Assembly: GCA_901538445.1 (NCBI GenBank)
Contig: LR594584.1
Span: 3,652,055-3,716,054, forward strand
DNA length: 64,000 bases
Source: Gemmataceae bacterium
Lineage (GTDB): Bacteria; Planctomycetota; Planctomycetia; Gemmatales; Gemmataceae
Reading direction: 5' to 3'
The notes under the pieces are model-generated. The model was not told the origin of the DNA and did not search any database. It worked only from the letters and a program-made list of their open reading frames with translations. Every line of letters starts with the position of its first letter. Position 1 is the stretch's first letter. The translations under genes and the position numbers were made by a program. This document shows positions 23,954 through 28,063 of the stretch, piece by piece.

Positions 23954-24014
23954 AGGGGGGGACGGAGTGGCGGCCGGGTGAGAAAATGGTTCTGGCGAGA
24001 TGGGGGGGTGGGGT

Positions 24015-24114
24015 CTCCAGAACCAACGAAAACTCTCCAGAAACAGCCGAAACTCTCCAGAACCAACGGAAACTCTCCAGAACCAACGCCAACTCCTCAG
24101 AACCAAGTGCCCCG
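24015..24114. repeat. 20-bp tandem repeat (minisatellite) between dcuC and acpS
   Basis: Four near-identical 20-base units begin at 24015, 24035, 24055 and 24075, consensus CTCCAGAACCAACGGAAACT, and a fifth decayed unit runs from 24095. GGTTCTGG at 23986-23993 is the reverse complement of the CCAGAACC core, so the array can fold back. It lies in the 199-base gap between converging genes. Confidence 0.85.
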
Positions 24115-24152
24115 CGCCTCAGAACCATGTTCCCGCAAGGCAGTTCACCACG

Positions 24153-24703: not shown

Positions 24704-27700
24704 ATGCATCAGCCCCTTGCCCGCGACCTCCTGGCCGACCTGACCGACGACCAGCGGGCCGCCGTGATGCACGGCGAGGGGCCGCTGCTCATCCTCGCCG
24801 GGGCCGGGAGCGGCAAGACCCGCGTCATCACCCGCCGCGTCGCGTACCTGCTCTCGCAGGGCATCCGCCCGAGCAACATCCTCGCGATCACCTTCACCAA
24901 CAAGGCCGCGGGCGAGATGCGGAGCCGCGTCGAGCAACTCGTGCCGGGCAACCGCGTCCTCGTCAGCACGTTCCACGCGCTCGGCGCGCGGCTCCTGCGG
25001 CAGTACGGCGAGCGGCTCGGGTTCGACCGCAACTTCACCATCTACGACATGGACGACCGCAACAAGGTCGTGAAGGCGGCGCTGGAGGCGACCGGCATCG
25101 ACAACGTGAAGTTCAGCCCGGAGCGGATCGGCGGCGCGATCAGCAAGGCGAAGAACGCCCTCGTCACCCCGCCCGAGTTCGAGAAGACCGCGACCGACTT
25201 CTTCGCCCAGACCGTCGCCAAGGTGTACCGCGGGTACGAGAAGCGGCTCCGGGCCGCGAACGCGATGGACTTCGACGACCTGCTGTACCTCCCCGCGATG
25301 GCGCTCAAGCACAACGAGGAGCTGCGGGCCGAACTCGACGCCCGGTTCCGGTACGTCCTCATCGACGAGTACCAGGACACCAACTCGGCCCAGTACCAGG
25401 TCGCCAAGCGGCTCGCCATCGACCACCCGAACCTGTGCGTCGTGGGAGATCCCGACCAGTGCCTGCTGCCCGGCACGCTCGTGGACACCCCCTCGGGACC
25501 GAAGCCGATTGAGCAGATCCGTGACGGCGATGAAGTGCTGTCGGGGATCGGATGGGGCAAGGTCGCACCGATGCCGGTGGACAAGGTGATGTTAAACCCG
25601 CACCGCGGGAAGATCATCCGCATTCAGGTCGAGGGCGGCGTCACGCTCCGCGCGACGCCCAACCACATCTGCTTCGGGCGTCTCCGGCCCGACCCCGACC
25701 GGCACCACGTGTACCTCATGTGGAAGCGCGGCATGGGGTACCGCCTGGGCACGACGCGCGGCGTGCGGACGAGCAAGAGCGGCCCGTTGATGTCCGGGCT
25801 CCAGGTCCGGACGAATCAGGAGGTCGCGGACGCGATGTGGGTCGTGAGGACGTGCGGCACCTCGTCCGAGGCCCGGTACTTCGAGCAACTCTACTCGGTG
25901 AAGTACGGCATCCCGACGATGGTGTTCTTCGTTCGCGGTCGGGGGATGGGAATCAGCCAGGACTTGATCGACCAGTTGTTCCGAGAAGTGGACACGGAAG
26001 CCGGGGCGACGCGCTTGATGGCCGATCTGCTTCTGGACCGCCGCTACCCGCACCACCGCCCCGGGGCCGTGACTCGGGGAGAAATCGCGCGCAGGTTCAT
26101 CCAGTTCACGGTATTCGGAGACCCACGGCCCAAGCAAGAGGCCCAGCGCCGCTGGCACGAACATCGGGTGCAACTCATCACGTCCGGTGTCGAGCTGCGG
26201 GAGAAGGCTCGCTCCGCCGCGCTGCCCGTGCGCAACGGGAACAAGGGAACGTGGCGGATCGAGACTTCTCGCAAGGGCTACGACGACGCCCTTGCACTCG
26301 CCGATTCAATCAACCAAGTCGATGAGTTCGAGACGGTCTCCCGCGCCCGGCTCACCGAGGGCAAGGCGTTCCCGTTCATGCCGGCGAGTCACTTGCAACC
26401 GGGCATGGTCGTGCCGGTCCGAATCGAAGGCCGGATCGAGGAACGGGTGGTTGAGTCCGTGACGTGGGAAGAGTACGACGGGTTGGTCTACGATCTGTCC
26501 GTACCCAACACTCGGAACTTCATCGCAAATGGGCTGGTCGTCCACAACTCGATTTACAAGTGGCGCGGCTCGGACATCAAGAACATCTTGGACTTTGAAC
26601 GTGACTTCCCGGCGGCGCGGGTGATCACGCTGAACAAGAACTACCGCAGCACGAAGACGATCCTGCACGCGGCCAGCACGGTCATCGACCACAACAAGCA
26701 GCGCAAGAAGAAGTCGCTCGTCACCGACAACCCGCAGGGCGAGCCGGTGCGTGTCGTCACCTACGACAACGGGCTCGACGAGGCCGAGGGAGTCGTGGTG
26801 CGGATCAAGGAGGCGGTGACCGCGGGCCGGTTCAAGTTCCGCGACCACGCCATCTTCCTGCGGATCAACGCCCTCACCCGGACCCTCGAAAGCGCGTTCG
26901 TCAAGCACGGCGTCCCGTTCCAGATCGTGAAGGGGCTCGCGTTCTTCGACCGCAAGGAAAACAAGGACGTCCTCGCGTACCTGCGGTTGCTCGCCAACCC
27001 GGCCGACACGGTCAGCTTCCTGCGGGTCGTCAACGAGCCCCCGCGGGGCATCGGCAAGGTGTCGCTCGACAAGCTCCAGTCGGTCGCCGCCGACCGCGAG
27101 ATGACGCTCATGGACGCCGCCGCCCAGGTCGCGAAGCTCACCGACATCAAGGGCAAGGCCGCGACTGGGCTCCGCGACTTCCACAAGCTCATCACCGAGT
27201 TGCGGGCGCGGCTCGACCTCCCGCCGCAAGACCTCGTGCGGCTGGTTCTCGAAAAGTCGGGCTACTCCGCGTCGCTCCGCGAGTCCGGCGAGGAAGAGGA
27301 CGCGGAGCGCTTGGCTAACATTGAGGATGTCGTGACCGCCGCCAAGCAGTTCCACGACCAGAACCCCGAGAGCACCATCGTCGACTTCCTCGAACAGATC
27401 ACCCTCGCGTCCGACACGGACGGCTGGGACGAGCAGGCCGACCACGTCTCGGTCATGACGCTGCACGCCTCGAAGGGGCTGGAGTTCCCGGTGGTGTACG
27501 TGATGGCGGTGGAAGAGGGGTTGCTCCCGCACGAGCGGAGCATGGGCCGCGAGGACGAGATTGAAGAGGAGCGGCGGCTGTGCTTCGTGGGCATGACGCG
27601 GGCGATGAAGGAGCTGTACCTCACGCACGCCCGGCTCCGCGAGTTCCGCGGGCAGATGAACTACGCAATCGAGAGCAGCTTCCTCCGCGAGTTGCCGCGG

Positions 27701-28063
27701 GAGGGGGTGGAGCGGCTCGACCCGTCGATGACCCGGAACGTGGCCCGCACGGCAGCCGACGAGTGGCGGGCGAAGGCCGGGAACGCCGCGAGCGACTGGG
27801 CCGACACCGGGGCGCGGCCGTACATCCCCGCGAAGAAGCCAACGACCGACCTCAAGCCGACGATCCCCGACGGGGCCGACACGGGCCTCGCGGTGGGCGT
27901 GCTGGTGCAGCACGAGGAACTCGGGCTGGGCCAGGTGACGGACGTGAGCGGGTACGGGGCGCTGCGGCGGGTGAAGATCCGGTTCCCCAGCGCCGGGGAA
28001 AAGACGTTCGTCGCGGACAAGGTGAAGCTGAAGGTCGTGGGCCGCAAGAAGACCGGCGGCTGA
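24704..28063 (+). CDS. pcrA: UvrD/PcrA-type 3'-5' DNA helicase containing an intein
   Basis: 1119 residues as translated, about 756 after intein removal, a normal PcrA length. Superfamily 1 motifs in order are I (AGAGSGKTR), Ia (AITFTNKAAGEM), II (LIDEYQDTNSAQ), III split by the intein (VVGDPDQ, then SIYKWRGSD), IV (LNKNYRSTKTIL), V (VMTLHASKGLEFP) and VI (RRLCFVGMTRAMKELYL). A C-terminal Tudor-like segment (GVLVQHEELGLGQVT) as in PcrA binds RNA polymerase. It unwinds DNA in repair and clears stalled polymerase or RecA. The start ATG at 24704 follows GGAAGGA at 24690-24696. Without splicing, motif III is destroyed and the enzyme cannot work. Confidence 0.95.
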   Translation: MHQPLARDLLADLTDDQRAAVMHGEGPLLILAGAGSGKTRVITRRVAYLLSQGIRPSNILAITFTNKAAGEMRSRVEQLVPGNRVLVSTFHALGARLLRQYGERLGFDRNFTIYDMDDRNKVVKAALEATGIDNVKFSPERIGGAISKAKNALVTPPEFEKTATDFFAQTVAKVYRGYEKRLRAANAMDFDDLLYLPAMALKHNEELRAELDARFRYVLIDEYQDTNSAQYQVAKRLAIDHPNLCVVGDPDQCLLPGTLVDTPSGPKPIEQIRDGDEVLSGIGWGKVAPMPVDKVMLNPHRGKIIRIQVEGGVTLRATPNHICFGRLRPDPDRHHVYLMWKRGMGYRLGTTRGVRTSKSGPLMSGLQVRTNQEVADAMWVVRTCGTSSEARYFEQLYSVKYGIPTMVFFVRGRGMGISQDLIDQLFREVDTEAGATRLMADLLLDRRYPHHRPGAVTRGEIARRFIQFTVFGDPRPKQEAQRRWHEHRVQLITSGVELREKARSAALPVRNGNKGTWRIETSRKGYDDALALADSINQVDEFETVSRARLTEGKAFPFMPASHLQPGMVVPVRIEGRIEERVVESVTWEEYDGLVYDLSVPNTRNFIANGLVVHNSIYKWRGSDIKNILDFERDFPAARVITLNKNYRSTKTILHAASTVIDHNKQRKKKSLVTDNPQGEPVRVVTYDNGLDEAEGVVVRIKEAVTAGRFKFRDHAIFLRINALTRTLESAFVKHGVPFQIVKGLAFFDRKENKDVLAYLRLLANPADTVSFLRVVNEPPRGIGKVSLDKLQSVAADREMTLMDAAAQVAKLTDIKGKAATGLRDFHKLITELRARLDLPPQDLVRLVLEKSGYSASLRESGEEEDAERLANIEDVVTAAKQFHDQNPESTIVDFLEQITLASDTDGWDEQADHVSVMTLHASKGLEFPVVYVMAVEEGLLPHERSMGREDEIEEERRLCFVGMTRAMKELYLTHARLREFRGQMNYAIESSFLRELPREGVERLDPSMTRNVARTAADEWRAKAGNAASDWADTGARPYIPAKKPTTDLKPTIPDGADTGLAVGVLVQHEELGLGQVTDVSGYGALRRVKIRFPSAGEKTFVADKVKLKVVGRKKTGG
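25460..26548 (+). mobile_element. Intein in the helicase motif III (363 aa)
   Basis: An in-frame insertion splits VVGDPDQ from SIYKWRGSD. Residue 1 is Cys (CLLPGTLVDTPSG). Block B shows RATPNHICF with the TxxH-type motif. Block F reads VYDLSVPNTRNFIANG, and it ends HN before a Ser +1 residue: all the chemistry for protein splicing. The ends lie at helicase residues 253-615. The central 220 residues lack a recognisable LAGLIDADG dodecapeptide; they contain RYFEQLYSVKYGIPTMVF and PHHRP, which may be a diverged or different endonuclease or a linker. Codons look a little less GC-rich than the flanks. Excision should restore an intact helicase. Confidence 0.93.

Follow-up and report, generated by a model that had tools for sequence, protein, structure and literature searches.

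A PcrA/UvrD helicase gene in the stretch of Gemmataceae DNA analyzed here (64,000 nucleotides, hereafter the window) is interrupted by an insert in helicase motif III (GDPDQ|SIY), which raises the question of what this insert is and what its middle part encodes. The sequence-only reading of the window had taken the segment for an intein, to be checked by searching its 363 residues with intein HMMs, and had suggested that the middle might be a new or decayed endonuclease type lacking a LAGLIDADG motif. The features discussed below are listed in the table.

Table. Features of the interrupted helicase gene (window coordinates; residue numbers are those of the intein unless stated otherwise)
Feature	Position	Strand	Basis
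PcrA/UvrD helicase ORF, 1119 aa	24704-28063	+	PF00580, PF13361, TIGR01073 matches
N-extein of PcrA/UvrD, 252 aa	24704..25459	+	PF00580, TIGR01073
Intein, 363 aa (ORF residues 253-615)	25460..26548	+	Hint profiles, AF2 model, empty sites
Intein C1; N363; +1 Ser	25460-25462; 26546-26548; 26549-26551	+	
Hint N-terminal part, blocks A and B, residues 1-72	25460..25675	+	TIGR01445, alignment, model
T66-P-N-H69 (TPNH) of Hint N-terminal part	25655-25666	+	
GIY-YIG-like nuclease module (predicted), residues 77-157	25688..25930	+	Alignments, models, structure and profile comparison
Y85, predicted GIY tyrosine equivalent	25712..25714	+	48/48; fixed by pattern in 97-sequence set
R95-L-G97, predicted YIG strand equivalent	25742..25750	+	R95 and G97, 48/48
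R117, predicted catalytic arginine	25808..25810	+	97/97
E142, predicted metal-binding glutamate	25883..25885	+	97/97
Two helices after the module, residues 167-189	25958..26026	+	Model
Accessory alpha/beta subdomain, residues 211-300	26090..26359	+	Model, alignment
Hint C-terminal part, blocks F and G, residues 305-363	26372..26548	+	PF14890, TIGR01443, radA intein match
C-extein of helicase	26549..28063	+	PF13361, TIGR01073

Our profile searches revealed that the insert matches three intein models above their cut-offs, namely TIGR01445 intein_Nterm (29.1 bits), TIGR01443 intein_Cterm (32.1 bits), and PF14890 Intein_splicing (46.2 bits), so that HINT profiles do recognize the segment. Its C-terminal part also resembles the solved radA intein of P. 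horikoshii (E 2.7e-8). The AF2 model of the whole intein reached a pLDDT of 92.3 and a pTM of 0.89, and its Hint part aligned with solved inteins, including mini-inteins, at Z ~20. More specifically, the junctions read Q|C after VVGDPDQ and HN|S before SIYKWRG, and the sequence features of a class 1 intein are present (blocks A, B, F, and G, Cys1, TPNH as the TxxH motif, a C-terminal HN, and Ser at +1). The insert is an intein with intact splicing blocks, and splicing is predicted; without it, the helicase has 756 aa. Profiles, model, and the empty alleles of relatives bear out the proposal of a helicase intein in motif III, and the coordinates and junctions (Cys1, HN then Ser) given for it were exact. 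As such, the intein is ordinary and sits at a classic kind of site; the predicted nuclease is its unusual part.

We found the helicase in 19 of 19 same-genus genomes and the intein in 3 of them. The site could be read in 15 same-genus helicases, 12 of which are exactly empty (VVGDPDQ|SIYKWRG or a near variant) and 3 of which carry the intein. In one pair of sister genomes, Gemmata sp. IIL30 (G010) is occupied whereas G008 is empty, although almost every 100-base block of the flanking coding DNA is 93-99% identical between the two; the intein was thus either gained recently or lost precisely. No co-conversion signal was evident around the G010 site, and the comparison of intein and host trees had too few rows, leaving its forks open. 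GC at third codon positions ranges over 0.78-0.97 for the intein, compared with mostly 0.93-1.00 for the exteins; this lower value would fit, if weakly, a foreign origin. The synonymous divergence between same-genus intein copies is high and speaks against very recent transfer between these copies. When the window intein is compared with its counterpart in Gemmata sp. IIL30 (L022), third-position identity per 40 codons amounts to 0.57-0.72 over the first part, with values as low as 0.37-0.40 at some points of the second; this drop possibly reflects recombination inside the intein. The C-extein frame of L022 diverges from its relatives after about 'ITDFLE', which is a frameshift or a sequencing error.

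The middle of the intein contains a module of ~80 residues that recurs in 97 distinct sequences, 96 of which lie in recognizable inteins: 95 passed the intein-context check automatically, L024 was a pattern miss in which HN|S is plain, and the one remaining module (L090) is cut by a contig end. Within the collections searched, the module is tied to inteins. The pattern used for collecting this set demanded Y85, M87, R95, and G97 and left R117 and E142 free; the latter two are nonetheless kept in 97/97 modules, spanning 23 clusters at 50% identity. In an alignment of 48 inteins, the positions of the middle part that never vary are Y85, M87, R95, G97, R117, W127, A138, and E142. Tyr, Gly, Arg, and Glu are, in this order, the signature residues of GIY-YIG nucleases. 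The model predicts a topology of strand 82-89, strand 93-100, helix 113-120, strand 125-132, and helix 135-149, with Tyr85 and Gly97 on the two first strands and E142 in the last helix; a conserved Arg after the YIG strand and a Glu in a later helix are accordingly both found in the module. Its motifs are variant, the Gly of GIY being absent, the Tyr of YIG being Trp, Phe, or Tyr, and R117 lying farther from the YIG strand than the Arg of classical members.

When the complete intein served as the query, the structures listed were all Hint proteins; the insertion was therefore modeled by itself (pLDDT 80.5) and used for the search. In the viral structure library, the best three matches were proteins of host types that harbor this intein (a helicase, an adenine methyltransferase, and one unnamed protein). 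Next, at E 2.7e-3 to ~0.2, came a large number of endonucleases of the GIY-YIG, group I intron, NUMOD3, SegE-like, and T5orf172 kinds. Among the PDB matches listed, UPF0213 BH0048 (Z 4.9) and Slx1 (Z 4.2) are the ones that extend over the module; both are GIY-YIG structures and also match a GIY-YIG profile made from other loci. Plain Foldseek against the PDB gave nothing at E <= 0.001. With hhalign, the module scored 30.0 (P 3.4e-5) against five MUG113/T5orf172-type sequences, compared with at most 18.8 in 100 column shuffles, and 18.3 against the T5orf172 set as a whole, for which shuffles reached 16.0; its scores against UPF0213 alone (17.4) and against the long T5orf172 set alone fell inside the shuffle range. 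No Pfam or NCBIfam GIY-YIG model passed its threshold in any family member, the module profile found nothing meaningful among PDB sequences, PHROGs gave no consistent family, and two single-sequence viral scans yielded nothing further. A Z below 5 is low by itself, and it is the agreement among these comparisons that carries the weight. Taken together, the models and alignments make a good but not final case that the module is a divergent GIY-YIG-like nuclease.

Other nuclease types were also considered for the middle domain. As the sequence-only reading had noted, it holds no LAGLIDADG motif; neither its own frame nor the alternative frames gave a LAGLIDADG family match, and the hhalign score of the module against LAGLIDADG was 16.1. 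Likewise, no HNH motif or Pfam match was present in frame, and none in other frames. The family searches assigned the middle to no other endonuclease family either. A match to EH_Signature (E 0.04-0.07) occurred in one member only and was taken as chance. Of the segments following the module, the 211-300 subdomain is confined to long members of the family (bacterial helicases, phi92-like phages, L032, and L119). Weak Foldseek rows for the accessory part pointed to LAGLIDADG halves and T4 MotA; assignment of 211-300 as a LAGLIDADG-like DNA-binding half found no support in the profile comparison, its hhalign score against the LAGLIDADG profile (9.3) lying inside the shuffles. We infer that the helices after the module, together with this subdomain in long members, probably serve in target recognition.

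To judge whether the module is intact, we compared substitution rates, and found a dN/dS of 0.03-0.13 for the module (four pairs) versus 0.10-0.32 for the exteins, with synonymous sites partly saturated. In addition, a phage mini-intein of 149 residues (L112:2501-2947) at the methylase site, within an open ORF of 575 aa, lacks exactly the module, and this clean absence indicates that the module is modular. Purifying selection and signature residues kept throughout the collected set mean that the module does not look decayed; jointly with its modularity, these sequence features argue for a selected function, most simply homing. Thus, of the earlier suggestion of a new or decayed endonuclease type, decay looks unlikely, and predicted fold and residues favor the known GIY-YIG superfamily over a wholly new nuclease. 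This superfamily was, however, stated in a 2006 survey to be absent from inteins (PMC1564403).

We therefore favor, at a probability of roughly 0.8, the reading that the window carries a splicing-competent mobile intein with a GIY-YIG-like homing endonuclease, splicing and cleavage being predicted from sequence and models. In this scheme, the Hint domain would excise the intein after translation and join the PcrA/UvrD halves into the 756-residue helicase. The free intein would then cut intein-free pcrA/uvrD at the motif III codons by means of module 77-157, with Tyr85, Arg117, and Glu142 as the predicted active-site residues of a divergent GIY-YIG-fold nuclease, and repair of the break would copy the intein into the cut allele.

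Three other readings were weighed against this one. The module could be a homing nuclease of another fold, still cutting DNA and homing, whose likeness to GIY-YIG is convergent; the missing Pfam match, the low PDB scores, and the variant motifs would suit such a view, which we consider unlikely because residues, topology, two structure libraries, and the profile comparison all agree on GIY-YIG. Slightly less likely still is a GIY-YIG-derived module that has lost cutting in the window lineage, is inherited vertically, and is kept for folding or DNA binding. Such a history would be compatible with the long-standing divergence of the three same-genus copies and with a patchy presence that could equal repeated loss. 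It is opposed by the invariance of Arg and Glu everywhere, the window intein included, by the purifying selection on the module, by the mini-intein at another site, according to which the splicing fold can do without the module, and by near-identical sister alleles that differ by the intein. That the insert is retained, leaving the cell with a helicase of 1119 residues that has gained a domain, is very improbable: all splicing residues are conserved, the source genome yields a single PcrA match at E <= 1e-60 and the insert breaks up its motif III, relatives have empty alleles, and the same junction chemistry occurs in unrelated host proteins.

Beyond the window, the intein family was detected in Planctomycetota and one alphaproteobacterium, and in UvrD-like phage helicases, including SPO1 gp34.33 and those of phi92, Justusliebigvirus, Klebsiella phage KP13-16, and Vibrio phage RYC; the CampHawk helicase intein also belongs to it. 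Helicase-like genes on plasmids of Nostoc, Stanieria, and Thermobispora carry members, as do ParB-like DNA methylases of Planctomycetota, Streptococcus suis phages, and ~70 viral contigs, and three other host genes (L110, L291, L296). Helicase insertion points comprise motif III (GDxxQ|C/S), a site near motif II (DEAQDLNA|C...HN|SQ, L119), motif IV (NYR|S, L117), and motif V (TIH|S..KG, TAHK|SKG). On balance, and with less assurance than for the window intein itself, we consider it more likely than not that these members form a widespread, previously unrecognized class of mobile inteins with a GIY-YIG superfamily endonuclease. They would have invaded UvrD-like helicases at several sites, along with DNA methylases and other genes, some having a DNA-recognition subdomain.

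The nearest known counterparts are the inteins of SPO1 gp34.33 (275 aa), CampHawk, phi92, and Justusliebigvirus, which like the window intein combine Hint with the same module; those of SPO1 and Justusliebigvirus likewise lie in helicase motif III, whereas the SPO1-type intein is short and lacks the 211-300 subdomain. Records of SPO1, CampHawk, and some E. coli phages annotate the intein, with no nuclease type in the features shown. In LAGLIDADG inteins such as PI-SceI, PI-PkoII, and TliVMA, the nuclease is placed between blocks B and F of Hint as it is here (PMC8966425, PMC6801210); the window intein differs from them in having no LAGLIDADG motif or profile match. The module resembles the GIY-YIG homing endonucleases encoded in group I introns, as well as the free-standing enzymes of the Seg type, in its predicted fold, the Tyr/Gly/Arg/Glu order, and its structural neighbors. 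In contrast, GIY-YIG homing enzymes are intron-borne or free-standing (PMC1564403) and the module is intein-borne, with a shorter Arg-Glu spacing and variant GIY and YIG motifs. By profile, MUG113/T5orf172 (PF13455, PF10544) is closest (VYL.k.G.yykIGkT versus VYLMrrG.wwRVGkT in the module), the match spanning ~32 columns and the MUG113/T5orf172 proteins lying outside inteins. The ShiLan insertion is a homing insert in a phage DNA methylase (PMC11855218), but it is not an intein and hides an HNH in another frame; the window intein gave no hidden-frame match.

Inteins have also been described with a Vsr-like type of homing endonuclease. Intein papers later than the 2006 survey describe LAGLIDADG (PMC8966425, PMC9957025, PMC8772380, PMC5784728), HNH in inteins is cited by PMC5050341, and PMC7765530 lists the general homing endonuclease families and gives no GIY-YIG intein. 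Our searches of the open-licence literature turned up neither a previous description of a GIY-YIG intein nor a paper combining intein, 'GIY-YIG domain', and UvrD; prior naming elsewhere is possible. Should the module prove active as a GIY-YIG nuclease, enzymes of this type would combine with protein splicing in the same way as with group I introns. Such a family would account for an otherwise unassigned insert common to many helicases and methylases, and may supply compact site-specific nucleases. Since it occurs in laboratory phages (SPO1, phi92-like phages, and E. coli phage JohannJBalmer), homing and cutting are directly testable.

Several minor observations were made along the way. One phage helicase ORF of 1646 aa (L119; IMG/VR 3300009514_000001) holds two family inteins, near motif II and in motif III. 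The penultimate residue is not His in L016 and L020; L114-L117, L285, L286, and L297; L291; and L296, where Ala (TAN|C), Gly (GN), Gln (QN), and Phe (FN) occur instead, and the splicing chemistry of these inteins may differ. L113 proved to be an unrelated LAGLIDADG intein, picked up via the shared C-terminal pattern. Weak Hint-like matches lie in open frames of 3055 and 3301 aa in the source genome (L002 and L005; C1:159205-159414 and C2:1121356-1121571). Finally, upstream of the acpS/pcrA region, window positions 23990-24134 consist of tandem copies of a 20-base unit (CTCTCCAGAACCAACGGAAA-like). A query of 121 bases taken from this repeat gave 40 genome matches, the others at 86-93% identity (96 first-look candidates), and by these matches the repeat is a member of a dispersed repeat family.
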